From NCBI GenBank assembly GCA_903958085.1, contig CAJBRY010000571.1:1-33412 (forward strand): a stretch of DNA of 33,412 bases, given 5' to 3'. Of the stretch, positions 1-33,412 are shown piece by piece. Position 1 is the stretch's first letter. Every line of letters starts with the position of its first letter. A program made the position numbers and the translations under genes. This stretch comes from an uncultured Geobacteraceae bacterium (GTDB taxonomy: Bacteria > Desulfobacterota > Desulfuromonadia > Geobacterales > Pseudopelobacteraceae). The notes under the pieces are model-generated. The model had not been told where the DNA came from. It worked only from the letters and a program-made list of their open reading frames with translations, and did no database searches.

Positions 1-729
1 GGCATTGTAGGTGACGGTGTAGGTTGGCAGTGCTGTCCATTTGGCATATAGCGTGACGTTGGCCGAACCCATGGTGAAGCTGGCTCCATAAGCAGTCCCG
101 GTGCCATCACTGTTTTGATACCAACCGGCGAAGCTGTAACCTGTTCTGGTGAAGGTGTTTGTTTTGACTGTGACTGTTGCGCCGGTCAGATATGGACTGC
201 TTGCATCAGTCATTGTGCCGGTGCCGCCGTTGGCGTTGTAAGTGACAGTGTAGGTTGGGAGTGCTGTCCATTTGGCATATAGCGTGACGTTGGCGGAAGC
301 CATGGTGAAGGTTGTTCCGTAAGCGGTGCCGGTGCAAGCACTGTTTTGATACCAAGCAACAAAACTGTAACCTGTTCTGGTGAAGGTGTTGTTTTTTACG
401 GTTACCGTTGCGCCGGTGAGATACGGACTGTTTGCGTCAGTCATGGTGCCGGTTCCACCGTTTGAATTGTAGGTTACGGTGTAAGTCGGCAGTGCTGTCC
501 ATTTGGCATAAAGTGTGACGTTGGCGGTACCCATGCTGAAGGTTGCCGCTGCCGCGTAATTCGTACCACCTCCATTGGCCTCTGTATTCCAACCGGCAAA
601 GGTGTAGCCTGTTCTGCTGAAAGTGTTGGATTTGACGGTTACTGTTGCGCCGGTCAGATATGGACTGCCTGCATCGGTCATTGTGCCTGTGCCGCCGTTG
701 GCGTTGTAGGTTACGGTGTAGGTTGGCGG
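1..729 (-). repeat. Tandem ~231-bp (77-aa) InlB/Listeria-Bacteroides-type repeats, three full copies, continuing out of the window
   Basis: The string tgctgtccatttggcat recurs at 31, 262 and 493 (exact 231-bp steps); each unit translates as PTYTVTYNANGGTGTMTDAxSPYLTGATVTVKxNTFxRTGYxFAGW...LYAKWTAL. Confidence 0.9.
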
Positions 730-15101: not shown

Positions 15102-16090
15102 AGGTTCTTGTTACCGGGGGTGGAGGCTTTCTTGGTGGCGTTATTGTCAGGATGTTGCGTGAACGTGGCGATGAAGTACGCAGTTTTTCACGCGGCAAAT
15201 ATCCGGCTCTGGCAGAACTTGGCGTTGAGCAGGTAAGCGGTGCTCTGGAAAATTCTGACGCCGTCATCAAGGCTGCATCAGGCTGCGACCTTGTTTTCCA
15301 TGTTGCCGCAAAAGCCGGTATATGGGGAAGCTACAACGATTTTTATCAGGCCAATGTAACAGGAACCCGAAACGTAATTGCCGCCTGCAAAAGCAACCAC
15401 ATCAGCAAACTTGTCTATACCAGCTCACCAAGTGTCGTTTTTGACGGCAGCGATGTGGAAGGAGGGGATGAATCACTCCCCTATCCGGCAAAATATGAGG
15501 CACACTATCCGGCAACAAAAGCTATCGCCGAACAGATGGTACTGGCGGCAAACTCTCCGGATCTCGCTGTAACAGCTTTACGCCCGCATCTGATATGGGG
15601 GCCGGGAGACAATCATCTTGTTCCAAGAATAATTGCAAAAGGACGAGCCGGCAAACTTCGCCGTATCGGCAACCGCACCAATCTGGTTGATACTGTTTAT
15701 GTGGACAACGCCGCCCGCGCCCATCTGCTGGCTGCCGACAAACTTTTTCCAGGCAGCATCGTCAGCGGGAAAAGCTATTTCATCAGCAACGGTCAGCCTA
15801 TCCCTTTGTGGGAAATGGTCAACCTTATCCTGGCCGCAGCAGGGGTTCCTCCGGTAACCCGCAGCATTTCTCCAAATCTGGCTTATACAATAGGATGTAT
15901 CTGTGAAGGAATATGGGGAGCCCTTCGACTTGACGGAGAACCGCCAATGACGCGCTTTGTCGCCCACGAGCTTTCAACAGCACACTGGTTTGATATAAGC
16001 GCTGCCAGAAAAGACTTCGGTTATCTGCCGGAGGTTTCCATAGACGAAGGCTTGATAAGGCTGCAGAGGTCGCTTCATAATTTGCATTAA
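15098..16090 (+). CDS. oleD: OleD-like NAD(P)-dependent 3-beta-HSD/epimerase family reductase
   Basis: MKVLVTGGGGFLGGVIVRML; VFHVAAKAGIWGSYNDFYQANVTGTRNV; YPATKAIAEQMVL (YxxxK); fused operonically to the OleC-like gene. Confidence 0.85.
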   Translation: MKVLVTGGGGFLGGVIVRMLRERGDEVRSFSRGKYPALAELGVEQVSGALENSDAVIKAASGCDLVFHVAAKAGIWGSYNDFYQANVTGTRNVIAACKSNHISKLVYTSSPSVVFDGSDVEGGDESLPYPAKYEAHYPATKAIAEQMVLAANSPDLAVTALRPHLIWGPGDNHLVPRIIAKGRAGKLRRIGNRTNLVDTVYVDNAARAHLLAADKLFPGSIVSGKSYFISNGQPIPLWEMVNLILAAAGVPPVTRSISPNLAYTIGCICEGIWGALRLDGEPPMTRFVAHELSTAHWFDISAARKDFGYLPEVSIDEGLIRLQRSLHNLH

Positions 16091-16128: not shown

Positions 16129-17829
16129 ATGACATTATCACCATCATGCGTCACCGTCTTTCCGCCCAATAACTATCTCTGGCTCTATCTCACCAGCATT
16201 GCCGTGTTCGAAGCTCTGGCGGTCTACCTTTATCAGTACCGTGCCATACCTGGTGCCCGGCCGCTGATCCTCAATCTGTCATGCAAAGCACTCTGGCTAT
16301 TAAGCCGTGTTTTGTACGGTGCCACTGCAAGCATGCAGATCAAGATGTTTTGGGTTAACTGTTCGCAAATGTTGCAGCTTCTGTTTCTTCTGTTTTGGTT
16401 TCAGTTTATTCTGGAGATCAGTCAGCAGAAAGAAAAACTGCCGCTTTTTATTCGTATAGGCAGTTACGGGGTAGCGGCCTGCCTGGTGTTTTTAATCGTG
16501 TTTGATAGTCAGTTCGGTTGGTTGTGGGGGGCAATCACCATGAGCGGGCCGGTAATGAAGCTTGCGTTTGGTCCTGTAGCTCTGGCGCTCCTGTGGTTCA
16601 GCTATCTGCTCAACCTGTTTGTTCTGGTGATATGCATTCGCTGGATACTGAACACACATGGCTTGCGCCGTTGGCAGGCCATCGCGCTCTCCGTGCCGCC
16701 GCTGTTTATCTTGTCTTGCAATATGCTGAGCAGAGTGCCTTTGTTTCAGCCGTTTGCTCCGCAACTGGTGGGACTTTTACTGGGTGGAATTTACATAACC
16801 TGGGTTTTTTACCGACTACGGCTTTACAGCATCCTGCCGCTTGCGCATGATGTGGTCAGCCGCTCCATGATCGACGGCCTGCTGGTGGTTGACGAAAAAG
16901 GGTACATTGTCGAAATGAATGCTACCGCCAAAGAGCTGTTCAGCGGTTCCACGGCAGCGGTTGGCGGCGCGTTCGGCGATCTGTCCGCCACCAGGCCGGT
17001 TCTTGTCAACTTTGACCAAAAACCGGATGAGCAGAAACTTGAAACAGTCCTCTCTTTTTCCGAAGGTGAACGCCACTTTCAGATAACCATGACCCCGCTT
17101 ATTGCATCGGGTAACCACCTGCTAGGGAAAGTCTTTGTCCTGAAAGATATTACCCGGCAAAAGCGCGATCAGGCGACACTGATAGAGCAACAAAAAACAT
17201 TATCCGTAATGGCCGAACGGGAACGCCTGGGGCGTGAACTGCACGACACCAGGGGGCAGTTTCCCGGCTATGTCAAAACCCAGACCCAGGCCATCCGGCT
17301 GTTGTTGAAAAGAGAGCGGGTAGATGACGCAAACATGCAGCTGGATCAGATGATTGCCGCCGCCGATACCGCCTTCAGCGACGCACGGGAACTAATAACC
17401 AGCTTGAGGAATGTGGGCAAAGAGTGGCCTTTTTTTCAAAAACTGCCGGATTGGCTGGAGCAGTTCCGTGCCATGTCCGGTCTCACCGTTGACTACTCCG
17501 GCCCGGGTCAGCAACCGCCGTGCTGGGTTGCCCCGGAAGCTGAGGTGCATCTGCTGCGCATTATTCAGGAAGCACTGACCAATGCCCGGAAACATGCCGG
17601 AGCTGACCGGATTCAGCTGGAATTGAAAATGGGAAATGACCGACTAACCGTAACGGTAACCGACAATGGCAGAGGCTTTGATGTCACGGCTGCCGAGAGC
17701 GACACCACCAGATACGGCCTGGGAATCATCAGGGAACGGGTTGCGGAGATTGGCGGCAGGTGCGATATCAGCTCTGATCCGGCACACGGCACAACGATTA
17801 CGATTCAGGCTCCGCTCACCTCATTATAA
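16129..17829 (+). CDS. Membrane sensor histidine kinase: multi-TM N-terminus, PAS-like, HisKA_3 and HATPase (NarL-type)
   Basis: N-terminal ~7 hydrophobic segments; PAS-like MIDGLLVVDEKGYIVEMNATAKELF; RERLGRELHDTRGQ; IIQEALTNARKHAGADRI; VTDNGRGFDV; GLGIIRERVAEIGG. Confidence 0.92.
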   Translation: MTLSPSCVTVFPPNNYLWLYLTSIAVFEALAVYLYQYRAIPGARPLILNLSCKALWLLSRVLYGATASMQIKMFWVNCSQMLQLLFLLFWFQFILEISQQKEKLPLFIRIGSYGVAACLVFLIVFDSQFGWLWGAITMSGPVMKLAFGPVALALLWFSYLLNLFVLVICIRWILNTHGLRRWQAIALSVPPLFILSCNMLSRVPLFQPFAPQLVGLLLGGIYITWVFYRLRLYSILPLAHDVVSRSMIDGLLVVDEKGYIVEMNATAKELFSGSTAAVGGAFGDLSATRPVLVNFDQKPDEQKLETVLSFSEGERHFQITMTPLIASGNHLLGKVFVLKDITRQKRDQATLIEQQKTLSVMAERERLGRELHDTRGQFPGYVKTQTQAIRLLLKRERVDDANMQLDQMIAAADTAFSDARELITSLRNVGKEWPFFQKLPDWLEQFRAMSGLTVDYSGPGQQPPCWVAPEAEVHLLRIIQEALTNARKHAGADRIQLELKMGNDRLTVTVTDNGRGFDVTAAESDTTRYGLGIIRERVAEIGGRCDISSDPAHGTTITIQAPLTSL

Positions 17830-17841
17830 GGAATGCTCACC

Positions 17842-18492
17842 ATGAACATATTACTTGTAGACGACCATAAACTGTTTGCCAGCGGAGTAAAAAACCTGTT
17901 GGAAGCCGGTGGCATTCGCGTTGCGGGAATGGCGCGGAACGGCCACGAGGCGCTGGAGGCAGCGCGCCGCCTGAAACCGGACATTATCCTGATGGACATC
18001 AACATGCCCGGCTGTGACGGCTTGACCGCCACCCGCCAGATCAAAGCCGAATTTCCCAAAATCAAAATCGTCATGCTGACGGTAAGCGCCGACGATGAAT
18101 CACTCTTTGAAGCGATGCGCAACGGCGCATCCGGTTTTCTGCTGAAAAACCTGGATGCGGATGAATTCTTTGCCTGTCTGGAGCAGCTTGCACTGGGGGA
18201 GACGGTCTATTCGCCGGGGCTGGCGGAGCGGATGTTAAAAGAGTTCATGCGCGGCAGCGGCACAGCCGAAACTCACAAGCAAGCGATCAACCCGCTGACC
18301 CCGCGCCAGGAAGAGGTGCTGGCATGTGTCGCGCGCGGCCTGACGTATAAACAGGTGGCCGCACAACTCGCCATCAGTGAAACCACCGTTAAATTCCACA
18401 TGAACGAAATCCTCGAACGCCTGCAGTTGGACAACCGCGCCCAGGCTATCGCCTACATCAGCGGAGACAGAACCGGCAAACGGCTGCTTTAA
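17842..18492 (+). CDS. NarL/FixJ-family response regulator (REC plus LuxR HTH)
   Basis: MNILLVDDHKLFASGVKNLL; DIILMDINMPGCDG; LTPRQEEVLACVARGLTYKQVAAQLAISETTVKFHMNEILERL. ATG 17842 preferred (RBS TAAGGA) over track start 17833. Confidence 0.95.
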   Translation: MNILLVDDHKLFASGVKNLLEAGGIRVAGMARNGHEALEAARRLKPDIILMDINMPGCDGLTATRQIKAEFPKIKIVMLTVSADDESLFEAMRNGASGFLLKNLDADEFFACLEQLALGETVYSPGLAERMLKEFMRGSGTAETHKQAINPLTPRQEEVLACVARGLTYKQVAAQLAISETTVKFHMNEILERLQLDNRAQAIAYISGDRTGKRLL

Positions 18493-18848: not shown

Positions 18849-18910
18849 TGTGACCCTGTACTTTAGTACAGTACACAGACGCTTCACAACGTGCTACAGG
18901 GGTGGTCACA
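18849..18910 (+). promoter_or_regulatory. Structured 5' leader with mutually exclusive hairpins
   Basis: Long-range arms TGTGACCCTGTA (18849-18860) and TACAGGGGTGGTCACA (18895-18910); competing local hairpin CTGTAC-TTTA-GTACAG (18856-18871); ATG follows at 18958. Confidence 0.5.
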
Positions 18911-18957
18911 ACTATTTCACTCTCAAATTTATAGCCATAGATACAAGTGAGGACACT

Positions 18958-21900
18958 ATGAACAGGATTAAAAGTTTCAGCGGAATTTGTTATTTTCTGG
19001 CGGTGGTTGCACTACTTCTGCTTCCGGCAACCGGCTACAGCGCGGTGCGCTATGCTGTACCGGTTGCCGTCGGCACGGGTGATTGCCTTAGTTGGGACAA
19101 CGCCTGCACCCTGCAAAGCGCCCTGACCGGCGCTGTCAGTGGCGATGAATTGTGGGTGACGGCCGGGACGCATAAACCGACCACCGGCACTGACCGCCTC
19201 GCCACCTTCCAGCTCAAAGCCGGAGTGGCAATTTACGGCGGCTTTGCCGAATACGACAGCGATATGTCTGAACGCCGCTGGAAAACCAATGTCACCATCC
19301 TGAGCGGCGATATTGGCGTAGTTGGAAATAATGCCGATAACTCCTACCACGTGGTCACCGGCGCAACCGGCGCAATTCTGGATGGTGTGACAATCAGCGG
19401 CGGCAATGCCAATGGAACTAATCCGCACTACAACGGTGGTGGGATGTATAACCTCAACGCAAGTCCGACTCTGACTAATGTCATCTTCAACGGAAATATG
19501 GCTGCTTTAGGTGGCGGGATGCACAATATTGGCAGCAACCCTACGCTGACCAACGTCACCTTTAGTGGCAACATTGCAACCGGCGAAGGTGGCGGGATGT
19601 ACAATATTACCGGCAGCCCGACTCTAGCCAACGTCACTTTTAGTAACAATACAGCACATTATGGCGGCGGAATGAGTATCCATGGTACCAGCAATCCTAC
19701 GCTGACCAACGTCACCTTTAGCGGAAATACGTCAACCAGTGATGGCGGGGGGATGTTCTATGTCGGCTTATCCAGCATGACTCTGACAAACGTCATCTTC
19801 AGCGGAAATACGGCAGCCCTTGATGGCGGCGGGATGTACAACAACGCAAACGGGACGACCCTGACAAACGTCACCTTCAGCGGCAATTCAGCAATTCGCA
19901 ATGGCGGCGGGATGAATATCAAGAACAGCATCCTTACCCTGACCAATGTCACTTTCAGCGGCAACACGGCTGCTGCCGGTGGCGGGGTGTACAACGTCAA
20001 CAACGGCGCGACCCTCAAAATCCGCAATAGCATCCTGTGGGGCAATAGCGGTGGCGAAATCATTAACAGTTCAATAACAGCTAACGTCAGCTACAGCGAC
20101 ATTCAGGGTGGCTATGTTGGCCCCGGAAATATCAACGCCGACCCGTTGTTTGTGAACTCTGCCGCCGGTGATTTGCATCTGCGGGCCAATTCACCGGTCA
20201 TCAATAAAGGCAGCAACAGCGTGGCAACGCCAGCCTTGCCCGCCACCGATCTGGATGGCAGTCCGCGTATTGTTTACACCACGGTTGATATGGGGGCTTA
20301 CGAGTATGTAAATGTGCGCTATGTGAAAAGTGACGCCACCACCGGCGCCAACAACGGCGCATCCTGGGCAGATGCCTACACCGACCTGCAGAGCGCCCTG
20401 GCTGCTGCAGTAAGCGGTGACGTGATCTGGGTGGCTGCCGGAACCTACAAACCTACCACCGGCACCGATCGCACCATCTCCTTTCAGCTCAAAACCGGCG
20501 TGGCAATCTATGGCGGCTTTGCCGGGGCCGAAACCGCCCGCGCCGACCGCAACTGGACAACCAACATCACCACCCTGAGCGGTGATATCGGTGCAGTGGG
20601 TGATAGTGCCGATAACTCCTATCACGTTGTATCTGCCGGTGACACTACAGACAGTTCCGCCCTGCTCGACGGTTTTACCATTACCGCTGGAAATGCAAAT
20701 CTTGAAGAGGGTGGCTATGGTGGCGGGATTTACATTGATGCTTATGGCAATTCGACCCTGACAAACCTCATCTTCAGCGGCAATTCGGCTGGCAGTGGCG
20801 GTGGGATGTATATACAATCTCGTTACTCCTGGGACGAGCCAATTACCTTAACCAATGTCACCTTCAGTAACAATGTGGCGATCGGGAGCGGAGCCGGGTT
20901 ATTAGTTGATAATGCTTTGGTGACGCTTACCAATGCCACTTTTAACAATAATATGGTGGTCGGTGGTGATTTCGTCACCTTTGGCGGTGGGATACGATCT
21001 AGTGATTGTGACATGAAGCTGACCAATGTTACCTTCAGCGGCAATTCGGCGCCCAATGCAGGCGGTGGGATATTCAGCGAATATGATCGCCTGGAGCTGA
21101 CCAATGTTACCTTCAGCAACAACTCAGTAACCGATACAACTAACGGCGCCGGCGGTGGTATGTATACTGGCGTAGACATCATAAAGCTGACAAACGTCAG
21201 CTTCAGCGGCAATTCGGCTGCCGGTAGCGCTGCAGATAGTGGCGGTGGTGGTATGTATAATGCACTTAGCGAAATAACGGTCAACAACAGCATCTTCTGG
21301 GGTAATAGCGCCCCCAACGCGCCTGGCACGGAGCAGTTCTTTGTCTCCACTGATTCAACGAATCCTGTTACCATCAACGACAGCATCCTGCCGAACGGTT
21401 GTCCCGACAGAGCCAGCTGTACAAACATCCTGACCACTAATCCCAACCTCGGCGCTTTAGGCAGCTATGGCGGTTTCACCCAGACCATTCCGTTGCTCCC
21501 CGGCTCACCGGCCATTAACGCCGGTAATGCAACGAACTGCCCGGCCACCGACCAGCGCGGCCTGGCACGGGTAGGCGCCTGCGACATCGGCGCGTTTGAA
21601 TCGCAAGGCTTCATCCTTGCCAAAACCGGCGGCGATAACCAAAGCGCTGTCAGCGGCATGACATTTACCAATCCACTTGATCTGACCGTGACGGCCAACA
21701 ATGCTGTCGAGCCGGTTAATGGCGGCACAGTCACCTTCACCGCACCGGCAACAGGCGCCAGCACCAACCCGGCAACAAACAGCAGCGTCATAGCTGGCGG
21801 CGCAGTTTCCAAGAGTGTCACCGCCAACGCCACAGCCGGTGGACCGTACAGTGTTATTGCTAGCGCGACAGGGGCTGCAAACCAGACCTTCAGCCTGACC

Positions 21901-24900
21901 AACAGCAACAGCGTCACCTATTCCGTCACCTACAACGCCAACGGCGCGACCTCCGGTACACCACCCACCGACAGCAACGACTACCTGAGCGACGCCACAG
22001 TCACCGTGCTCGGCAACACCGGCGATCCAATCCTCACCAAAACCGGCTATATCTTCAGCGGTTGGAACACTGCTTCCAACGGCAGTGGCACAACATATTC
22101 GGCAGCCAGCACATTTTCAATCAATTCAAGCACCACCCTATATGCCAAGTGGGTTAATGTAGTTGCTTACGTCAAGCCCACCGCAACCGGCACAGGCGAC
22201 TGCAGCAGCTGGACAAACGCCTGTACCACCCTGCAGACCGCGCTGACCAACTCCGTAGCCGGGCAGGAAATCTGGGTTGCCAAAGGGACTTACAAACCGA
22301 CCACCAGTGCTGATCTAACCATATCCTTCAATCTCAAAACCGGCGTTTCCCTATACGGCGGCTTTGCCGGAACTGAAACTGCCCGCGATCAGCGCGACAG
22401 CGCCGCAAACGTCACCACCCTGAGCGGCGACCTGAACGAAAATGACAACAGCAACATAGCAAACAATGAACCGACCCGTTCAGACAACTCCTACCATGTG
22501 ATATATGCCAGTAATGTAACCGGCAGTACCCTTGACGGCTTCACTATCAGCGGCGGAAATGCCAATGGTAGTAATAATCCTGTTGATCCTAAAGGCGATG
22601 GTGGAGGTATGTACATTGCCGGTGGTACCCCGACAGTAAGCAACTGCACCTTCAGTAACAATTCAGCTATTGATGCAGGTGGTGGGGTTCTTGCTGCAAG
22701 TGGCAACCTGTTATTGGACCGAGTCACCTTTGCGAATAATAAATCATTCATTGGCGGTGGAATGAACAGTGATGCCACTACAACCCTGACCAACTGCACT
22801 TTCATTAACAATACGGCTAATAATAATTCAGGCGGCGGGATGGCTAATTGGGCTACCACGACCCTGATCAATTGCACCTTTAGCGGCAATTCGGCTGGAA
22901 TGTACGGCGGTGGGATGCTTAACGGCTTCTCTGGCGTTGCGAATCTTGCCAACTGCACTTTTAGTGGCAATTCGGCTCCTACTGGTGGCAGTGGAATGAC
23001 CAACTGGGGGCACGCTACGCTGGCCAGCTCTATCTTTTGGGGCAATGGCGCCTCGGAGATTCTTAACCAAAATGGCATTATTGCAGCATCAAACAACATC
23101 GTAAAAGGTGGCGGTTCCTACGGAATCAACTCTGACCCCAAGCTAGGCACACTCGGCAACTACGGTGGCACTACCCAGACCATCCCGCTCCTCGCCGGTT
23201 CATCAGCAATCGACGCCACAAACAGTGACTGTCCTGCCACTGACCAGCGGGGCGTCCTCCGACCGCAGGGGAGCAAATGCGACATCGGCGCCTACGAAGT
23301 AGCTACCCCCACAGTTACCACTAACGCCGCATCAGGCATCACCCAGACCGGCGCCACCCTTAACGGCACAGTCAACGCCAACGGCCTCTCGACAACCACA
23401 ACCTTTGAATATGGCTTGACAGATACCTACGGCACCTCCATGGACGCAACCCAAAGCCCTGTCACAGGAACATCAGCAACCTCCGTCAGCAACGCAATCA
23501 CCGGCCTAACCTGCGGCACAATATACCACTACCGCGCAACAGGGGCTAATATTGACGGCACAACTTACGGCAGCGACACTACCTTCTCCACCACCCCCTG
23601 CATCCCGGTCGCTCCAACCACTCCGGTAGCCACACACATATCCACCACCCGGATTGACCTAACCTGGACCGACAACAGCAACAACGAAAGCGGCTTTAAA
23701 ATCTACCGCAACGGCACCCTCATAAACACAACCGCCGCCGATGCCACATCATACAGCGACACCGGCCTCACCACCGGCACGGCATACAACTACACAATCA
23801 AAGCAACCAACGCAGGAGGGGACTCCACAGGCGTCACAGCAAGCGCCACCACCCTAAAACTCCCTGCCTTCACCAGCGCAACCTTCAAAAACTTCACCTT
23901 CAACACCCCCGGCAGCTTCACCGTAACCGCCACCGGCATACCTGCACCAACCTTCAGCAAAACAGGCACACTCCCTGCCGGCATCACCCTTAACAGCAAC
24001 GGAACACTCAGCGGCACACCAACCCAGGTCGGCACCTTCCCGCTCACCATAACAGCAACCAACAGCGCAGGAGCAACCAACCAGAACTTCTCGCTCACCG
24101 TAAGCAAAGGAGCAGCAACAGTAACCATAACTCCCGAAACACTCTCGGCTGTATATAACGGATCACCCAAAACAGTAACAGCCACCACCTCACCAACAGG
24201 CTTAACTGTAACCTTCACCTACAACGGCTCCGGCACAGCACCAACCAACCCCGGCATATACGCCGTAATAGCAACAATAAATGACTCAAACTACACAGGC
24301 AGCACAACCGGAACACTCCAGATCATCGACACCACCGGACCTAATCTCACCGTATCGACACTAGCCAACGGATCTGTGACCAACAACCCGACCCTCAACA
24401 TAACCGGAACCGCAAGTGACACTCAAAGCGGCATCGCCCTGGTCACCCTCAGCGGCACACCACTCGACCTCAGAAACGAAACCGGAAACTACACCTTCTC
24501 AACCGCCATAACCCTCACAGAAGGAGCAAACAACATAACAGTAACTGCAACCAACAACTCCTCCGTATCCACCACAGACAGCAGAACCGTATACCTTGAC
24601 CTCACCGCACCCACTATAGCAGTAGACCAACCAACCGATGCCAGCCTCACCGGCAAAACATACAGCGACATAAGCGGAACAATTGACGACCCGACCGCAA
24701 CAGTAACTGCCATAGTAAACAGCGGTTCACCCGCAATCGCCAACATAACCGGAACCACCTTCGGCGTAACAGTCAACCTCATCCCCGGACTCAACACCAT
24801 AGACATAACTGCCGCAGACCAGAACGGCAACAGCAGCAGCGTAAAACGGACCATATTCTCCGACAGCACCGCACCAAACCTCTCTGTCACCACACCGTCA

Positions 24901-25359
24901 CAAGACATAACCACCATAGAAACCGGCATCACCATCAACGGCACCGTAACAGACACACTAACAGCAGTAACAATCAGCATAAAAGTGGACGACCAGACCT
25001 TTGAACCAACTTTAGCCGAAAACGGCAACTTCAGTCAGCCCATTACCCTCTCTACTGACAAAACATACAACATAATAGTAACAGCCACCGATCAGGCTGG
25101 AAACAAAGCCGCCGTACAACGCAACATCATCAAAAAAACTCTCCCCTCGGGCGACATAAACGGAGACGGCGTTGTTGATATTGCTGATGCGTTAAAGGCA
25201 TTGAGGATTGCCGTTGGGCTGGAAACCGCCACAGAGTCTGATTATGTCAACGGTGATGTTGCGCCGCTCGTAAATGGCAAACCAGCGCCTGACGGAGTCA
25301 TAGACATCGCCGATGCCACGGTTATTTTGATGAAAACAGTTGGATTGAGGAATTGGTAA
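18958..25359 (+). CDS. Giant modular surface protein: signal peptide, three right-handed beta-helix modules, InlB-type repeat, Fn3 and Ig-like/MBG-like domains, C-terminal dockerin-like module
   Basis: MNRIKSFSGICYFLAVVALLLLPATGYSA signal; three copies of the helix head (Q(S/T)AL...W(V)AAGTYKPTTGTD...GGFAG...LSGD...DNSYHV); YSVTYNANGATSG...YAKW; TGATLNGTVNANG Fn3; terminal GDINGDGVVDIADALKALRIAVGL...PDGVIDIADATVILMKTVGLRNW. Track start 18850 is a GTG inside a hairpin. Confidence 0.92.
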   Translation: MNRIKSFSGICYFLAVVALLLLPATGYSAVRYAVPVAVGTGDCLSWDNACTLQSALTGAVSGDELWVTAGTHKPTTGTDRLATFQLKAGVAIYGGFAEYDSDMSERRWKTNVTILSGDIGVVGNNADNSYHVVTGATGAILDGVTISGGNANGTNPHYNGGGMYNLNASPTLTNVIFNGNMAALGGGMHNIGSNPTLTNVTFSGNIATGEGGGMYNITGSPTLANVTFSNNTAHYGGGMSIHGTSNPTLTNVTFSGNTSTSDGGGMFYVGLSSMTLTNVIFSGNTAALDGGGMYNNANGTTLTNVTFSGNSAIRNGGGMNIKNSILTLTNVTFSGNTAAAGGGVYNVNNGATLKIRNSILWGNSGGEIINSSITANVSYSDIQGGYVGPGNINADPLFVNSAAGDLHLRANSPVINKGSNSVATPALPATDLDGSPRIVYTTVDMGAYEYVNVRYVKSDATTGANNGASWADAYTDLQSALAAAVSGDVIWVAAGTYKPTTGTDRTISFQLKTGVAIYGGFAGAETARADRNWTTNITTLSGDIGAVGDSADNSYHVVSAGDTTDSSALLDGFTITAGNANLEEGGYGGGIYIDAYGNSTLTNLIFSGNSAGSGGGMYIQSRYSWDEPITLTNVTFSNNVAIGSGAGLLVDNALVTLTNATFNNNMVVGGDFVTFGGGIRSSDCDMKLTNVTFSGNSAPNAGGGIFSEYDRLELTNVTFSNNSVTDTTNGAGGGMYTGVDIIKLTNVSFSGNSAAGSAADSGGGGMYNALSEITVNNSIFWGNSAPNAPGTEQFFVSTDSTNPVTINDSILPNGCPDRASCTNILTTNPNLGALGSYGGFTQTIPLLPGSPAINAGNATNCPATDQRGLARVGACDIGAFESQGFILAKTGGDNQSAVSGMTFTNPLDLTVTANNAVEPVNGGTVTFTAPATGASTNPATNSSVIAGGAVSKSVTANATAGGPYSVIASATGAANQTFSLTNSNSVTYSVTYNANGATSGTPPTDSNDYLSDATVTVLGNTGDPILTKTGYIFSGWNTASNGSGTTYSAASTFSINSSTTLYAKWVNVVAYVKPTATGTGDCSSWTNACTTLQTALTNSVAGQEIWVAKGTYKPTTSADLTISFNLKTGVSLYGGFAGTETARDQRDSAANVTTLSGDLNENDNSNIANNEPTRSDNSYHVIYASNVTGSTLDGFTISGGNANGSNNPVDPKGDGGGMYIAGGTPTVSNCTFSNNSAIDAGGGVLAASGNLLLDRVTFANNKSFIGGGMNSDATTTLTNCTFINNTANNNSGGGMANWATTTLINCTFSGNSAGMYGGGMLNGFSGVANLANCTFSGNSAPTGGSGMTNWGHATLASSIFWGNGASEILNQNGIIAASNNIVKGGGSYGINSDPKLGTLGNYGGTTQTIPLLAGSSAIDATNSDCPATDQRGVLRPQGSKCDIGAYEVATPTVTTNAASGITQTGATLNGTVNANGLSTTTTFEYGLTDTYGTSMDATQSPVTGTSATSVSNAITGLTCGTIYHYRATGANIDGTTYGSDTTFSTTPCIPVAPTTPVATHISTTRIDLTWTDNSNNESGFKIYRNGTLINTTAADATSYSDTGLTTGTAYNYTIKATNAGGDSTGVTASATTLKLPAFTSATFKNFTFNTPGSFTVTATGIPAPTFSKTGTLPAGITLNSNGTLSGTPTQVGTFPLTITATNSAGATNQNFSLTVSKGAATVTITPETLSAVYNGSPKTVTATTSPTGLTVTFTYNGSGTAPTNPGIYAVIATINDSNYTGSTTGTLQIIDTTGPNLTVSTLANGSVTNNPTLNITGTASDTQSGIALVTLSGTPLDLRNETGNYTFSTAITLTEGANNITVTATNNSSVSTTDSRTVYLDLTAPTIAVDQPTDASLTGKTYSDISGTIDDPTATVTAIVNSGSPAIANITGTTFGVTVNLIPGLNTIDITAADQNGNSSSVKRTIFSDSTAPNLSVTTPSQDITTIETGITINGTVTDTLTAVTISIKVDDQTFEPTLAENGNFSQPITLSTDKTYNIIVTATDQAGNKAAVQRNIIKKTLPSGDINGDGVVDIADALKALRIAVGLETATESDYVNGDVAPLVNGKPAPDGVIDIADATVILMKTVGLRNW
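25150..25356 (+). other. Dockerin type I-like module (two F-hand-like Ca-binding repeats) at the C-terminus of the giant protein
   Basis: GDINGDGVVDIADALKALRIAVGLETATESDYVNGDVAPLVNGKPAPDGVIDIADATVILMKTVGLRNW. Confidence 0.8.
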
Positions 25360-25402
25360 GGAAGCCTTACATAACAACATCAGGTAACAACATGAACAAA
25401 CT

Positions 25403-25463
25403 CCGTTCGCCCTGAGCTTGTCGAAGGGCTCACTTCATGGTTCGACAAGCTCACCACGAACGG
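25403..25463. repeat. REP-like imperfect palindrome
   Basis: CCGTTCGccctGAGCTTGTCGAAgggctcacttcatggTTCGACAAGCTCaccaCGAACGG: long inverted arms, resembles a widespread bacterial intergenic palindrome. Confidence 0.85.
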
Positions 25464-25518
25464 ATAATTGCTTAACTTATTTTGTAATGCATCCTAACAA
25501 CAAAAAACGGAGGAATTC

Positions 25519-25992
25519 ATGAACATCATAAAATACATTCTCACAATTGCATCACTTTTGCTCCTTACCGCCTGCGGCGGTGGAAGCGACAGCACCGGAA
25601 CAGGAATAACAGCCGCTGCAACCACCATGAAACTGACCGTAGCCATAAACGGCAGTAACGCCTCTTCAGTCAAAGGGATTCAGGCGACTATAACTGTACC
25701 TGACGGTGTCTCCATAAAAGCTGATGCAGAAGGCAAAATAACAGAAGGTGTAATAACAGGATCAGCAACCGCACCGACCGGTAATATTGATGGTAAATAC
25801 ACAGCGATAGATAAGAAGGTAACACTCGGCTTCACAACCGATGGAACTATAACAGAAGGTGACCTTGCGACAATGACGATAGACTTCACAACAGCCACTG
25901 CACCTGCAGCTACAGCGTTCACTATAACAAGCAGCAAACTGGTGGATGCGGATGGGAATGCGGTGAGCGGGGTGTCTCTTGCGTTGAGGTAG
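25519..25992 (+). CDS. Small lipoprotein with cohesin-like fold prediction
   Basis: Signal MNIIKYILTIASLLLLTACGGG (lipobox LTAC); body KLTVAINGSNASSVKGIQATITVPDGVSI...ITEGDLATMTIDFTTATAPAATAFTITSSKLVDADGNAVSGVSLAL matches the general cohesin pattern; RBS CGGAGGAATTC. Confidence 0.75.
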   Translation: MNIIKYILTIASLLLLTACGGGSDSTGTGITAAATTMKLTVAINGSNASSVKGIQATITVPDGVSIKADAEGKITEGVITGSATAPTGNIDGKYTAIDKKVTLGFTTDGTITEGDLATMTIDFTTATAPAATAFTITSSKLVDADGNAVSGVSLALR

Positions 25993-26050: not shown

Positions 26051-27466
26051 TTATTCTTTCATCTCATCAGCCGCTTTAGGCGGGTAGAGATGAGGATATT
26101 TCAGTATCCTGTTTTCGATTGATCCCATCGGTTTAAGAGTAGTTTTGGCAGGTTTTGGAGAGCCCGAATAATAATCGCGAATAGCCAGAACCAGTGAAGT
26201 TCCCATATCCCGCATATCATCCGGCACAATCCATCTGGGCGAATAACCCGCTCTGCCGTATGTCATTTCCAGGGTCATTGCCAGCACCCTATCCTGATAA
26301 TTGGCCCACCACCAGCTTTCCGGATATGTTTTGGTCGCAAAACTTCCACCACCGTCTGCCGGAACCGGCTCGATCATATCCACTCCATGGTGTGCAGCCA
26401 CGTTGCTGATAAAGCTAAGCTGTTTCTCCCACAGGGAAACCTGTTCCGGCGAATATCCCAAAGATACCGGCCCGAAATGCGGATAGAAGAAGGGGCGGAT
26501 GTCAGGTTCACTGTTGGAGGCGTGCAGATTAAGCGCCATCGATACCGGAGGGCCGCCGTCACTCATCAGCTTTATTGCACAATCATGGATAACTGACACT
26601 TCCTGTGAGACAGTCCCTGTCAGATTTAGCGGGTTTGAGGCATCAAACGTCCATGACATCTCAAGATTTTCCGTTTTTGGGGTGGAACGGTAATTGCCGG
26701 TTATCACCCCGTCAACATTCTGCATCGGGAAAATATAGAACTCGTATCCAGACAGCAGATCGGCAGCCTCACCGGTTCCAGACAGGAGCCTGGCAATCAG
26801 GCCTTCAATCAGAAACGAGGGGGACGTTTCCGCCGGATGAGTACGGGCGTGCAAAATGATTCTCTTTTTACCTGATACAGGAACGTTAGGATCTGTGATT
26901 TTTATCAGGTAAAGGGGCCTGCCCTCCCCGGAATTGCCGGGTATCGATATAACGACAAAGGAATTGCCCTGAATAGTTTTCAAATAGTTTTCAAGGTCGG
27001 TAAAGGTGTAGGGATAAAACCTGGCCAACCAGACCGTTCCATGATTAAACTGTTTTGTAATTATTAACTCATTATTCGCGTTCTGGTTTACTTCGCTTTC
27101 TGCAAAGCGCAACCACTCTTTCTGATCAAAGGAGTATACCGGCAGATAGTAATATGGCCATCCGGAGTTTTTCAGAGTAATTTTCGTCGGAGCATCCTGC
27201 ACCAGGTTATCCATTCTTATATACCACCAACTGCGCCATGACGCCGGTAGAGCGGAATCATTATTGTCATCCGCCAGAGAAAGTTCCCACTCGGTGTCAG
27301 CAATTTTTGAAATATTGCCAATACTTCCGGACTCGAAGAAATCTGAAACTGTTGTAGTACTCTTTTCTTGAGTCCCGTCACCACAACCGGTTAATGAGAC
27401 GACTGCAAACAGCAACAAAACTATCCATATTTTCCATTTCATATCCATCTGATCATTCCTTTGCAT
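26051..27466 (-). CDS. M14-like zinc carboxypeptidase, lipoprotein
   Basis: KWKIWIVLLLFAVVSLTGCGDG lipoprotein signal; HARTHPAETSPSFLIEGLIARLL (HxxE), NVDGVITGNYRS, LNLHASNSEPD, LAMTLEMTYGRAG. Precise start among M1/M7/M9 uncertain. Confidence 0.83.
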   Translation of the reverse strand: MQRNDQMDMKWKIWIVLLLFAVVSLTGCGDGTQEKSTTTVSDFFESGSIGNISKIADTEWELSLADDNNDSALPASWRSWWYIRMDNLVQDAPTKITLKNSGWPYYYLPVYSFDQKEWLRFAESEVNQNANNELIITKQFNHGTVWLARFYPYTFTDLENYLKTIQGNSFVVISIPGNSGEGRPLYLIKITDPNVPVSGKKRIILHARTHPAETSPSFLIEGLIARLLSGTGEAADLLSGYEFYIFPMQNVDGVITGNYRSTPKTENLEMSWTFDASNPLNLTGTVSQEVSVIHDCAIKLMSDGGPPVSMALNLHASNSEPDIRPFFYPHFGPVSLGYSPEQVSLWEKQLSFISNVAAHHGVDMIEPVPADGGGSFATKTYPESWWWANYQDRVLAMTLEMTYGRAGYSPRWIVPDDMRDMGTSLVLAIRDYYSGSPKPAKTTLKPMGSIENRILKYPHLYPPKAADEMKE

Positions 27467-27619
27467 TCTGAATTATTATCCGAGAGTAGCACCCGTTTAT
27501 CACCTGGTCAAACGCTTATGATCATCCGCCAAACCCATTTGCCAGGTTACGGTGTACTTTTTGCAAATCAAGAGATCCTTCCGAAGAAAAAAACTATCAC
27601 CACATCCGGAGAAAACAAC

Positions 27620-30600
27620 TTGAAATACCGTACAATTAGCATTTTTATCTCTATTTTAGGCGTGGTTATCCTTTCTTTTTCTCCTCTGTATGCAACTCCT
27701 GCAGAGAACATGAATAAAGTATCAGGGGCGGTTAAGCGGTCAAAAAGCCCGCTATTCCGCGATGGCGAACTTATCATTAAGTTCAAAAAGAAAGCTAATG
27801 AATCAGAGCAGCGACTGGTTGCCGAGCGTCTTAACAACAAAACAGATGCCACTAAAAAGCGTGAGTTCAAAAAACTCCGTATGCAACACGTCAAATTGAA
27901 GAAGGGGATGACGGTAGAGCAGGGTATAGCCGCCTATACGGCTGACCCTGATGTGGAATACGCCGAACCAAACTACCGGTTCAGACTCAATCAGACGCCC
28001 AACGACACCCTGTACGGTCAACTGTGGGGCATGCCGCGCATACATATGCCGCAGGCATGGGACAGTGTTACCGGCAGCAGTTCAGTAGTTGTGGGGGTTA
28101 TTGATACCGGTATCGATGTTACGCATCCCGATCTGGTTCAGAATCTCTGGATCAACAGCGCCGAACAGACGGGTGCGGCCGATGCGGATGATGACGGCAA
28201 CGGCTATGCGGACGATCTGTACGGGTGGAATTCCTACACCAATTCCGCGGATGTGACGGATGACCATTCACACGGCACCCATGTTGCCGGCACCATAGCC
28301 GCGGCCGGCAACAACGGCATCGGGGTCGCCGGGATGAACTGGAACCTGAAGGTTGCGTCATGCAAGGCTTTTGACAGCACCGGGTATGCCTCTACGGCTG
28401 ACCTGATGGAGTGTCTGCAGTATTTTACGGTACTGAAAAGCAGGGGCGTCAATCTGGTGGCAACCAACAACAGTTACGGTGGCGATGATTACAGTCAGGC
28501 GTTCAGCGATGCCATTAGCGCCATGCCCGATGTGCTATTTGTTGCGGCTGCCGGGAATGATTCAAATGATAACGACATCCTTCCGTATTATCCGGCTAAC
28601 TATGATCTGCCTAATGTGATTACCGTGGCGGCCACCGATGTGGCTGATGACCTGGCCGGTTTTTCAAGCTATGGCCGGCGCACGACCCACGTCGGAGCGC
28701 CAGGGAACGATGTCATAAGTACCATACCGGTAGCCATGGCTACCGATGGGGATCCGCTGCAGGCCTACCAGTCCAAGTCCGGCACCTCCATGGCCACCCC
28801 CCATGTGGTCGGCCTGGCAGCTTTGCTGAAATCCCAGAATACGGGCAGGGACTGGCGGGCAATCAGGAACCTGATTCTGTCTTCGGGAGAGGATCTGCCG
28901 GCCCTGCAGGGAAAAACGGTGTCGGGCCGGCTTATCGACGGCGCCCGGGCGGTCAATTGCGTAAACAGGCCGCTGTTTGCACTGCTCACCCCCCAGGTGG
29001 CAGCTGCGGCCGGGGTTCCCTATCATATCCGCGTACTGAGTATCAACTGCGACCAAGCGGCCGGCCCGATTACCGTGACAGTAAGCGGCATCGGCGCGGT
29101 CACTCTCCATGATGACGGCATCACCCCTGACCAGGCGGCCGGTGATGGGATGTTTTCGGCAGTCTGGACACCTCCAGACAATCTGGCACGGGTCGTCACG
29201 ATTGTTTCTCCGGCCGGTGGCACCACGTTTGAAACCATTCCGCTGCTGTTTAGTCCGCTTGCCGATGCAACGGCCAACCTCCTGCATGACAGCATAACCG
29301 CATCGCTGCTTGCCCCGGATAATGAAGCACTTTCCTTCCGCTTTACCGCCAGCGGCGGTCAGACTCCGTATCTCTGGAGCATTTCTGCGGGAACTCTTCC
29401 CGCCGGCCTGACGCTTGATCCGGCATCAGGCGTGGTAAGCGGCAGTGCCACCCAGACCGGTATTTTCGAAGTGACTGTGCAGGTTACCGACAAGCTTGGT
29501 TTTCAGGCTACCAAAGCCTGGAACGTGAATATCCTGTCCGGCATTCGCGGCGGGTGGCCTAAAGTGATGCAACTGCGTGACGCCGGACAGGAAAGTTACC
29601 CGCCCGTATTTGCTGATATTGACGGTAACGGCAGTCAGGAATTGCTGGTCAGCGATGGAACCGTGCTGTATGTCTATGACGCAACCGGTCTGCGGGTCTC
29701 CCGTGATATCGGCTGGCCTCTGACCGCCCCGGCTGTTGCCGATATTGATGGTGACGGCGTACCGGAGATCGCCATCGGCCTGCGGGGAAATTTTCCCGGC
29801 CCTGATCTGCCGCTCCGCATCATGAATGCCGATTTGACACTGAAAGCCGGTTTCACCTCTCCCGATCTTTCCGGGATGCTGCCGTGGGGTCGGGCGCCTG
29901 TTCTGGCCGATATCAACGGTGACGGTTTGAAGGAAATCATCATGACGGTCCATGACCGTCAAAACTATCAGATCCTGTTGTATGCCATGTATCCCGACGG
30001 TGTGCTGCTGCCGGGGTGGCCGGTGCTTGCAGAGGCTCTTGGCACCGACAACAACAGTGATAAACGTCCCGCTGTCGGCGATATAGATCTGGACGGTCTG
30101 GCCGAGGTTGTGTATCCGGACGACATCGGTAACCTGCATATCTTCAAGGCGGACGGCAGCAAAGTGACTAGGGTATTTTATCCCGACCTCGGTGCGGACT
30201 GGAGCAAGCTTCATACCCCGGTACTGCATGATGTGGACAACAACGGTATCCCGGATATCATCTTCAATGCGGGAACTCTGGCAGCTGCCACCAGCAGCGG
30301 CACGATCTACTCATACAACAGTGACGGTTCAACCCAGTCGGCGTTTTCACTCGCCGGATTCAGCACTTCTGAAACCTCATCGGTTGCCCTTGGCGACCTG
30401 GACGGTGACGGGCTGCCCGAACTAGTATACCTGAACAACCCTGGGATCGTGGGCCAATACCAGCTTAACGCCGTTCGTGGGGACGGCTCGTCGCTGCCCG
30501 GTTGGCCGGTCTCACTACCCCCGTTTCACGCCATGCCCTACGGTTTCAATCAGCCGGTTATTGCTGACATCAATGGCGACGGCACGGCCGAGGTGCTACT

Positions 30601-33412
30601 GAATCTTGCCCATTACACTGATGAGGGTGCATCATACGTGTTCGATACCCCCTACCTGGCAGCTTACAGTGTCAACGGCTTCCCGGCGGCAGGTTTTCCC
30701 AAACCGGTTCTGGGGAGCAGTTATGCCGGCACATCACCTGCAGTCGGTGATCTGGATGGCGACGGCAGAGTGGATATTGCCTTGAAGGGTGATGACGGCA
30801 GGCTGTATGTATTCTCTCAGACGGTGCCGTCATCTCTTGCCGGCGCCCCCTGGCCGATGTACAGCGGAAACAGTGCCTTGACGAGCTTTGTCCCGCCGGC
30901 AGTTACGGTGGATTCTATTCATATAGACCCACTCCCGGTGACGGTTAGCACGGTGGATGTAACAGTGAGCGGCACACGTCCCGCAGGCATCGACATTATG
31001 CTCACCAACCTGACCACTGGTGAGAGCCTGGTTCCTGATTATCCGACCGTCACCACCTGGAGCGGCACTGTCAGTCTGGTTCCAGGAAGCAATCTCATCA
31101 GGGCGGCGGGGAGTAACGGCCGCACGGCGGGGCGCGGTATCACGCTGGCTGGAGCAGACGGCGAAGCACCTGTCGTGACGGAGTTCTCCATGCCGGCCAC
31201 CCATACATCCCTGGCGGTGCCTGTCACGGTCTTTACCGCCAGTGACAATATCGAGGTCAGCGGCTACAAAATCACGCAGTCTGCCGTGCCGCCGACTGCG
31301 TCGGATTCCGGTTGGCGCCTGCCGGCACCGGCCAGCTTCACCTTCAGCGGTCAGGGCCTACAAACCGCCTACGCCTGGGCAAAGGATGCAAGCGGCAACG
31401 TTAGCGCCGCAATCTCCACACCGGTCGACATTACTGTCGTGCCGCCTGTTGATGGCGTCTGCGGCAGCGATAACGGACAGACTCTGGCCATGCCTACTGG
31501 AACGGGTCTGTGTACAAGCGGCACCGCCTCGGTGGCAACCTTCAGTTTTGGAGCCTGGAACTGGCAGTGTCACGGGCAGTACAGCGGCTTCAGCAGATTT
31601 TGTTCCGCCACCGTTCCGGCACTTCCAGATACACCGGTGAGAATCGGCAGCGGAACAGGGCTGCAGCTATATCCGGCGACCAATGATATTGGTGAGATCG
31701 TCTGGGTTGAGGAAAATCAGCAGCCCTATTCCAGACGCATCCTGTCAAACATTCGCGGAGAGTTGTTAAATATCAGTAGCGGCCCCTATAATCTTGCCAT
31801 CAACAATCTGGGGGATCTGGCCTGGGTAGAAAAAATCACCGGCTACGGGCAGATCTTCTGCCGTGTTAACGGCGTCATCACCCAGGTGACCAGCGGGGCC
31901 AAAGATCATGATTACCCGTCCATAACGGATACTGGTGAAATTTTCTGGATTCAGCAGGACGATACCATGCAGGTTTATTCAAGCCTCCGGGGTGCGCTCA
32001 CATCAGATGGCGTCGATCATCCCTACCTGTCGGTCAACAACCGCGACGACATGGTCTGGTCTGTGGGTACTGAAGGAATCGGCGGAAATGTTGCCGGCAT
32101 CCCGTTGCTGATGCACACGCCGTCCGGTTTTGATCCGGTGATTAGTGATCAGCGTGAAATAGTCTGGAATGATAATAATTTCAATGGATTTAGCAGGCTC
32201 TTTTCCTCGCTGCGGGGAGAACTTAACGCCGGTTGGGGACAGGACAGCCTTTTTCACCGCCAGCCTGCCATTAACGGCTGCGGAGATGTTGCTTTTGTCG
32301 ATGCTGATTTCTTCGGAACCGTAGCAACTCTCTATCGCCTCGGCAACAGCTCACCCTGCGGTGGCGAACCGGAACCGAACGATACAAGTCAGCAGGCGTC
32401 TGCAATCAGCAGCGGCAGCGTAACCGTCGGCACCTTGACCCCCGGCAGTGACGCGGAAGACTGGTACACCTTCGGTGCGGCAGCAGGAATGCCGATAGAC
32501 CTGTGCATCAACTGGGATGCCTCGGGAACAAACACCCTGACCGTAGAACTGCGCAACGCTGCCGGTACGGTACTGGCAACTGCTACAGGCAGCGGCTTCG
32601 GCAAAACCCTCTCCTACACTCCATCAGCAAACGGTGTGTACTATCTGCGCTTTGCAGGTACTGCGGACGTTAAATTCGGCTATGCCGTCAAAACCACCTT
32701 CACCCCATGGACGCCGCCCCCTGTAGCTTCAGCCACCACCGGTTCCGCTTCGTCTGTATCAACGACCGGCGCCACCCTGAACGGCACGGTCAGCTCAAAC
32801 GGCGCTGCGACTACAGTAACCTTCCAGTACGGCTTGACCGCCGGCTACGGGAGCACCGCAACCGCCAGCCAGAGCCCTTTGGCGGCAGATGTAAGCAACA
32901 GTGATGTGTCAGCCGCCGTATCCGGCCTCACCTGCAACACCACCTACCACTACCGCGTAGTTGCTGCGAACAGCGCCGGAACAACAAACGGCAGCGACGC
33001 AACATTCACCACCAGCGCCTGCGCTTCTATCGGTACCACCTACACCTGGACCGCCACCGGCGGCACCAACAACACCGTCTACCGTATTGCACCAGATGGA
33101 ACAACAGTATCCATGGGGAGTTTCCCAGCAGCAACATTGAGCTACACCGACACCTCCGCCCTATCCAACACCATCTACACCTACTGTGTCAAAGCAGACA
33201 ACAACGATCCATGCCTCCAGTCAACCGCCATCCGCACACCACTCTACAACGGCTGGAACATTCTAGGTGTCCCATACAACACAACCGGGATTACCGCATC
33301 AACACTATTCAGCAACACAGTCAGCGCAGTCTATGAATGGATGCCCACAGGCACCAAAAACGATGCAGGCTATAACGCAGACATCAGCGGCTATTACATA
33401 ACCGTAGGCACC
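27620..33412 (+). CDS. Giant S8 subtilisin-like serine protease (1931 codons in window, continues past end): propeptide, catalytic domain, Ig-like, FG-GAP/VCBS repeats, Cys-containing segment, propeller-like repeats, PPC-like domain, Fn3
   Basis: TTG start with GGAG upstream (MKYRTISIFISILGVVILSFSPLYA); catalytic D VVVGVIDTGIDVTHPDL, H HSHGTHVAGTIAAAGNNGIGVAG, S SGTSMATPHVVGLAALL; repeated ADIDGDGxPEI; frame stays open to 33412. Missing from the ORF track because of no stop. Confidence 0.92.
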   Translation, partial: MKYRTISIFISILGVVILSFSPLYATPAENMNKVSGAVKRSKSPLFRDGELIIKFKKKANESEQRLVAERLNNKTDATKKREFKKLRMQHVKLKKGMTVEQGIAAYTADPDVEYAEPNYRFRLNQTPNDTLYGQLWGMPRIHMPQAWDSVTGSSSVVVGVIDTGIDVTHPDLVQNLWINSAEQTGAADADDDGNGYADDLYGWNSYTNSADVTDDHSHGTHVAGTIAAAGNNGIGVAGMNWNLKVASCKAFDSTGYASTADLMECLQYFTVLKSRGVNLVATNNSYGGDDYSQAFSDAISAMPDVLFVAAAGNDSNDNDILPYYPANYDLPNVITVAATDVADDLAGFSSYGRRTTHVGAPGNDVISTIPVAMATDGDPLQAYQSKSGTSMATPHVVGLAALLKSQNTGRDWRAIRNLILSSGEDLPALQGKTVSGRLIDGARAVNCVNRPLFALLTPQVAAAAGVPYHIRVLSINCDQAAGPITVTVSGIGAVTLHDDGITPDQAAGDGMFSAVWTPPDNLARVVTIVSPAGGTTFETIPLLFSPLADATANLLHDSITASLLAPDNEALSFRFTASGGQTPYLWSISAGTLPAGLTLDPASGVVSGSATQTGIFEVTVQVTDKLGFQATKAWNVNILSGIRGGWPKVMQLRDAGQESYPPVFADIDGNGSQELLVSDGTVLYVYDATGLRVSRDIGWPLTAPAVADIDGDGVPEIAIGLRGNFPGPDLPLRIMNADLTLKAGFTSPDLSGMLPWGRAPVLADINGDGLKEIIMTVHDRQNYQILLYAMYPDGVLLPGWPVLAEALGTDNNSDKRPAVGDIDLDGLAEVVYPDDIGNLHIFKADGSKVTRVFYPDLGADWSKLHTPVLHDVDNNGIPDIIFNAGTLAAATSSGTIYSYNSDGSTQSAFSLAGFSTSETSSVALGDLDGDGLPELVYLNNPGIVGQYQLNAVRGDGSSLPGWPVSLPPFHAMPYGFNQPVIADINGDGTAEVLLNLAHYTDEGASYVFDTPYLAAYSVNGFPAAGFPKPVLGSSYAGTSPAVGDLDGDGRVDIALKGDDGRLYVFSQTVPSSLAGAPWPMYSGNSALTSFVPPAVTVDSIHIDPLPVTVSTVDVTVSGTRPAGIDIMLTNLTTGESLVPDYPTVTTWSGTVSLVPGSNLIRAAGSNGRTAGRGITLAGADGEAPVVTEFSMPATHTSLAVPVTVFTASDNIEVSGYKITQSAVPPTASDSGWRLPAPASFTFSGQGLQTAYAWAKDASGNVSAAISTPVDITVVPPVDGVCGSDNGQTLAMPTGTGLCTSGTASVATFSFGAWNWQCHGQYSGFSRFCSATVPALPDTPVRIGSGTGLQLYPATNDIGEIVWVEENQQPYSRRILSNIRGELLNISSGPYNLAINNLGDLAWVEKITGYGQIFCRVNGVITQVTSGAKDHDYPSITDTGEIFWIQQDDTMQVYSSLRGALTSDGVDHPYLSVNNRDDMVWSVGTEGIGGNVAGIPLLMHTPSGFDPVISDQREIVWNDNNFNGFSRLFSSLRGELNAGWGQDSLFHRQPAINGCGDVAFVDADFFGTVATLYRLGNSSPCGGEPEPNDTSQQASAISSGSVTVGTLTPGSDAEDWYTFGAAAGMPIDLCINWDASGTNTLTVELRNAAGTVLATATGSGFGKTLSYTPSANGVYYLRFAGTADVKFGYAVKTTFTPWTPPPVASATTGSASSVSTTGATLNGTVSSNGAATTVTFQYGLTAGYGSTATASQSPLAADVSNSDVSAAVSGLTCNTTYHYRVVAANSAGTTNGSDATFTTSACASIGTTYTWTATGGTNNTVYRIAPDGTTVSMGSFPAATLSYTDTSALSNTIYTYCVKADNNDPCLQSTAIRTPLYNGWNILGVPYNTTGITASTLFSNTVSAVYEWMPTGTKNDAGYNADISGYYITVGT
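29540..30860 (+). repeat. FG-GAP/VCBS-type beta-propeller repeats within the S8 protease
   Basis: PVFADIDGNGSQELLV, PAVADIDGDGVPEIAI, PVLADINGDGLKEIIM, PAVGDIDLDGLAEVVY, PVLHDVDNNGIPDIIF, VALGDLDGDGLPELVY, PVIADINGDGTAEVLL, PAVGDLDGDGRVDIAL. Confidence 0.85.

Follow-up and report, generated by a model that had tools for sequence, protein, structure and literature searches.

A giant secreted protein ending in a dockerin and a neighbouring cohesin lipoprotein form a candidate surface-anchoring pair in the Geobacterales

The window, by which we mean the whole stretch of DNA that was analysed, is the 33,412-nucleotide contig C571 of a 4.53-Mb genome in 804 contigs, whose named relatives are Geobacter, Geomonas and uncultured Geobacteraceae. 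It carries a gene for a giant secreted protein followed on the same strand by a gene for a lipoprotein, with the following features.

18850 to 25359, forward strand: gene for the giant secreted protein, an open reading frame of 2169 aa from GTG 18850
25135 to 25356, forward strand: C-terminal dockerin of the giant protein, two repeats (GDINGDGVVDIADALKALRIAVGL...GDVAPLVNGKPAPDGVIDIADATVILMKTVGLRNW), extending to the last residue
25153 to 25188, forward strand: first calcium-loop motif in the sequence, DINGDGVVDIAD, perfect
25255 to 25314, forward strand: second loop in the sequence, with a family-specific insertion, DVAPLVNGKPAPDGVIDIAD
25403 to 25463, forward strand: intergenic imperfect palindrome of 60 bp (CCGTTCGCCCTGAGCTTGTCGAAGGGC...GGTTCGACAAGCTCACCACGAACGG)
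25519 to 25992, forward strand: gene for the cohesin lipoprotein, 157 aa
25618 to 25989, forward strand: single cohesin domain (residues 34-157), a predicted beta sandwich with pLDDT mostly 95-99

The giant open reading frame probably starts at the in-frame ATG 18958, which yields a 2133-aa protein whose signal peptide is good (MNRIKSFSGICYFLAVVALLLLPATGYSA), and the numbering used in an earlier sequence-only reading (residues 2065-2133) fits this form of the protein. Besides the signal peptide and the C-terminal dockerin, it has three choice-of-anchor-Q/beta-helix blocks, a Listeria-Bacteroides repeat, FN3, MBG and Glucodextran_B-type Ig repeats. Glucodextran_B is an Ig-like accessory domain, and choice_anch_Q is named for proteins with interchangeable C-terminal anchors. 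A dockerin in the place of such an anchor fits an anchoring role. Directly upstream of the giant gene and on the same strand (16129-18492) lie genes for a histidine kinase (7TM, PAS, HisKA_3) and a LuxR-type response regulator, which are possible regulators of the pair.

Dockerins of type I (PF00404) were recognised by two tandem F-hand repeats with Dx[DN]x[DN]Gxx[DNS]xxD calcium loops. The tail of the giant protein contains both repeats, with a perfect first loop and the insertion in the second. Among 85 members of the dockerin family, the second-loop motif, searched as a regular expression, was present in 77. The strict first-loop motif was retained in only 33, so calcium may matter less for many of the relatives; the copy in the window has both loops. 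On the tail alone, Dockerin_1 scored 15.8 bits, below the Pfam gathering cut-off of 22.9, and other dockerin matches in the same genome scored 28-30.5 bits. By its sequence, the dockerin of the giant protein is thus classed as a divergent member. When the family profile was compared with PDB sequences, cellulosomal dockerins ranked first (E 0.0016-0.004), and a Foldseek comparison of the AlphaFold2 model with the solved dockerin 4uyq_B gave a TM-score of 0.78 and an rmsd of 2.1. The claim that the giant protein ends in two dockerin-type repeats was therefore upheld.

A gap of 159 bp separates the stop codon of the giant gene from the start of the lipoprotein gene, in line with the roughly 160 bp noted before. 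The palindrome within this gap was predicted to form a strong RNA hairpin in the transcript (z = -4.6), which may weaken co-transcription of the two genes here. Its core had no second occurrence in this genome, and one arm matched multi-copy plasmid sequences of Sphingobium at 92-97% identity. Downstream of the cohesin gene and convergent with it lies the gene for a secreted M14 zinc carboxypeptidase (26051-27466, reverse strand), whose signal resembles a lipobox (SLTGC). Two further giant secreted proteins run off the contig ends, namely a beta-propeller/beta-helix/laminin-G protein at 1-3915 on the reverse strand and a subtilisin with FG-GAP repeats and a choice-of-anchor-X domain at 27461-33412 on the forward strand; the C-termini of both, and hence possible dockerins, lie beyond the contig. 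An AMP-binding enzyme followed by a 3-beta-HSD-type dehydrogenase (13464-16090) resembles the oleC/oleD long-chain olefin cluster.

The lipoprotein gene is preceded by a ribosome-binding site, GGAGG, at 25509-25513. The signal peptide comprises residues 1-18 and the lipobox LTAC residues 16-19 (LTA|C-GGG), with Cys19 as the predicted lipidated residue and Gly at position +2. Judged from the sequence, this Gly would point solely to outer-membrane sorting and not to which side of the membrane the protein faces. Taken alone, the lipoprotein gave no Cohesin (PF00963) match in Pfam, NCBIfam or PDB sequences. Its sole Pfam match, ribosomal L6, was judged to be due to chance. Its family profile likewise found no cohesin among PDB sequences, only one of 23 relatives scored against Pfam Cohesin (E 0.0028), and a single-protein search of genome contigs found no relatives. 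Since the single-sequence assignments were weak, about 100 relatives were gathered from related genomes for family alignments, followed by structure prediction.

The AlphaFold2 model of the lipoprotein on the family alignment reached a pLDDT of 91.3, and in a Foldseek search the best 23 of 774 PDB matches were all cohesins. Type II cohesins dominated (Clostridium thermocellum, Acetivibrio, Bacteroides cellulosolvens), and the Archaeoglobus fulgidus cohesin 2xdh was the best or second-best structural match (TM 0.54/0.60). The E-values were modest (best 7.8e-4), with TM-scores of about 0.5-0.6. The body of the lipoprotein is thus predicted to be one cohesin domain, as had been proposed from the letters, and the fold search did not assign it to an unrelated fold. 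Pfam profiles on the individual proteins had supported neither half of the proposal, with Dockerin_1 below its cut-off and Cohesin unmatched, but the family alignments and structures gave both folds. Two other open reading frames in the genome match Pfam Cohesin (G000:C178:3407-3643 and G000:C50:1210-1545, at 30.4 and 23.2 bits); they were absent among the matches of the cohesin lipoprotein family.

Because the dockerin, the intergenic stretch and the lipoprotein lie in one frame, read-through of the stop codons (NCBI table 28) yields a natural single chain. This chain of dockerin, 53-residue linker and lipoprotein was modelled on an alignment of 136 rows, in which 15 relatives were fused likewise. 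Both domains had a pLDDT of about 96-98, the linker was disordered and the pTM was 0.73, a single value that reports model confidence and is not a binding measurement. As 201 of the 288 residues belong to the two domains, a pTM of about 0.44-0.55 would be expected without docking and 0.64-0.72 with docking. The observed value is expected only if the relative placement of the domains is predicted within about 2-3 Å, and the model is thus confident enough to require a dockerin-cohesin interface of the kind suggested earlier. On this model, the dockerin of the giant protein very probably docks on the cohesin of the neighbouring lipoprotein. Such binding would probably be calcium-dependent.

To follow the two families beyond the window, lipoprotein and dockerin profiles were both run on the same 98 Geobacterales genomes. 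Both families occurred in 71 genomes, the dockerin only in 7, the cohesin only in none and neither in 20 (Fisher p 3e-15). For 69 of the best 150 lipoprotein matches, one of the best 150 dockerin matches lay at most 2.5 kb upstream on the same strand, where 0.07 would be expected, and within 5 kb these best matches were found in no other arrangement. The expectation that the pair is conserved in neighbouring genomes was thus borne out. Of 40 seemingly unpaired lipoproteins whose loci were re-fetched, 27 turned out to be immediately preceded by a weaker dockerin, and a further two were at contig edges; away from contig edges, 11 of 99 lipoproteins had no upstream dockerin gene. Among 40 re-fetched dockerins without a listed partner, 18 were followed by a divergent cohesin lipoprotein and 22 by no recognisable cohesin gene. 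Six dockerins beside such lipoproteins served as seeds for the dockerin profile, so its recall of unpaired dockerins may be low. The profiles were built partly from adjacent pairs, and adjacency as an artefact of this seeding is countered by the 27 of 40 loci, which had been chosen because they seemed partnerless.

The dockerin ended at most 6 residues from the C-terminus in 160 of 162 open reading frames, all 85 paired cohesin proteins had a lipobox (regular expression) and 81 of them had Gly at +2, and no open reading frame carried both a dockerin and a cohesin. The lipoproteins fall into a short class of about 160-220 aa, to which the copy in the window belongs, and a long class of about 400 aa, in which some 230 aa are added at the N-terminus; in either class the cohesin is C-terminal. 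One clear cohesin was seen in each of 143 cohesin open reading frames except L149, which encodes a Geomonas lipoprotein carrying two cohesins in tandem; a few others had second matches that were weak N-terminal or partial ones. At two loci (L054, L091), two cohesin lipoprotein genes stand in tandem after one dockerin gene. In a phylum-wide search, the matches beyond the order were weak, confined to long open reading frames in 3 genomes, which indicates that almost the whole lipoprotein family is confined to it; one pair was found in a MAG labelled Nitrospirota (L154). Six pairs were recognised in this genome (C571, which is the window, C545, C542, C682, C469 and C761), and many more occur across the order. 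In eight genomes of one genus, a cohesin lipoprotein and a dockerin open reading frame of about 1600-2000 aa, both orphans, lie about 40-46 kb apart (G097:C55, G093:C15, G081:C1, G079:C1, G077:C3, G091:C22, G089:C10, G092:C3), and it is possible that these pair in trans.

The cargo of recognised pairs included M6 and M4 metallopeptidases, beta-propeller, laminin-G, Lcl_C, FN3 and Ig-repeat proteins. The sampled cargo showed no common catalytic theme and no catalytic CAZyme domains; peptidases, lectin-like and Ig modules were present. A cellulosome was rejected, as there was neither a multi-cohesin scaffoldin nor a carbohydrate-active enzyme among the sampled cargo, and this agrees with the sequence-only reading, which had argued against a classical cellulosome. 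The varied cargo instead makes a one-to-one anchoring module likely.

We thus consider it likely that the giant protein is the cargo and the downstream cohesin lipoprotein its private anchor, which holds the dockerin non-covalently on the envelope. The in silico support covers the dockerin fold, the cohesin fold, the gene pairing and the lipobox, and for docking it takes the form of model confidence. Both proteins would be exported by Sec, after which the lipoprotein would be lipidated on its cysteine, inserted into the membrane and sorted to the outer membrane. The giant protein probably crosses the outer membrane, and the genome carries a type II secretin as a candidate export route. Its extreme C-terminal dockerin would then bind the single cohesin, probably with calcium, and the cargo would thereby stay attached to the envelope, most probably at its outer face, with a presumed role in adhesion or biofilm formation. 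The same module, a C-terminal dockerin on diverse secreted proteins with a cohesin lipoprotein downstream, would be reused across the Geobacterales and would stand in for sortase, PEP-CTERM or type IX-type anchors. Whether it amounts to general surface anchoring in this order, with the dockerin as sorting tag, one co-encoded cohesin lipoprotein per cargo and orthogonal pairs working in parallel, is in our view evenly balanced.

Other readings of the pair were weighed against a private anchor. That the two genes are unrelated neighbours, the first ending in a dockerin-like tail that is merely a calcium-binding terminus and the second encoding a free-standing Ig-like lipoprotein, would suit the weak single-sequence scores, but the gene pairing already tells against it and it conflicts with the fold search, the pTM of the fused model, the co-occurrence and the adjacency, and we regard it as highly improbable. 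A less remote reading is that specificity for the neighbour is lacking, so that within one genome any cohesin may pair with any dockerin and the anchors form a pool shared in trans. Several dockerins without an adjacent cohesin, and the orphan lipoproteins and dockerins about 43 kb apart in some Geomonas-type genomes, are in keeping with such a pool, but the near-strict order and strand of the pair speak against it. The distances among dockerins and among cohesins also correlated (r 0.52, against a maximum of 0.41 in 3000 within-genome re-pairings), which suggests that the pairs are inherited as units; this correlation was lost on re-pairing, although co-inheritance alone could cause it. We therefore hold a shared pool to be unlikely.

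It is somewhat less probable still that the pair binds but the complex remains in the periplasm or serves assembly, with the lipoprotein acting as an export chaperone or retention factor rather than as a permanent surface anchor. Gly at +2 predicts an outer-membrane location for a lipoprotein without implying that it faces outwards, a private one-to-one partner encoded directly downstream would also suit a dedicated chaperone, and the lipoproteins without an upstream dockerin gene (11/99) can be counted on the same side. Cohesin-dockerin pairs elsewhere are, however, stable attachment devices, and a cargo of beta-helix, Ig, FN3 and lectin-like modules is typical of surface proteins.

Non-cellulosomal cohesins and dockerins are already known, including from archaea and sulfate reducers. 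Non-cellulosomal proteins of Archaeoglobus fulgidus, the source of 2xdh, which resembles the lipoprotein, likewise carry the modules without cellulolysis, and a passage of PMC9012536 that draws on earlier work states that the archaeal cohesin and dockerin bind each other specifically. In the Geobacterales, by comparison, a bacterial lipoprotein bears the cohesin singly, a large secreted cargo has the dockerin at its C-terminus, and the pair occurs many times over in a genome. In ANME archaea and their sulfate-reducing partners, non-cellulosomal cohesin/dockerin proteins with a proposed role in adhesion or biofilm formation, and in Hot-Seep1 adjacent cohesin/dockerin domains, have been reported (PMC9012536, PMC10553843). 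The ANME proteins include scaffoldin-like ones with up to five cohesins, whereas the Geobacterales have one cohesin, one lipoprotein and one cargo. The type II anchoring of the clostridial cellulosome likewise attaches a dockerin-tagged protein to the cell via a cohesin on an anchored protein, but the Geobacterales have no multi-cohesin scaffoldin (with the exception of L149), no X module was seen, the anchor is a lipid rather than SLH or sortase and the cargo is without catalytic CAZyme domains. The dockerin of the giant protein occupies the same place as LPXTG, PEP-CTERM and type IX tails, which are also C-terminal anchor or sorting tags. In contrast to these, attachment in the Geobacterales would be non-covalent and the receptor a cargo-specific neighbouring gene product, not one shared enzyme. 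In the literature searched, no paper naming both dockerin and Geobacteraceae was found, and an order-wide, apparently one-to-one pair of dockerin cargo and cohesin lipoprotein was not found described; the principal survey on such modules, Peer et al. 2009, lay outside this literature and may list Geobacter proteins.

The way of life of Geobacter relatives depends on contact with partner cells, minerals and electrodes, and to our knowledge it is poorly known how their large surface proteins are held. If the proposed anchoring is true, a repeated one-to-one module would explain how these large proteins are retained, and it would account for many hypothetical lipoproteins that Pfam does not name. 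Display and assembly work would also gain dozens of naturally matched cohesin-dockerin pairs that may be orthogonal. In this Gram-negative order, the cohesin-dockerin interaction would then have shifted from multi-enzyme scaffolding to generic protein anchoring.
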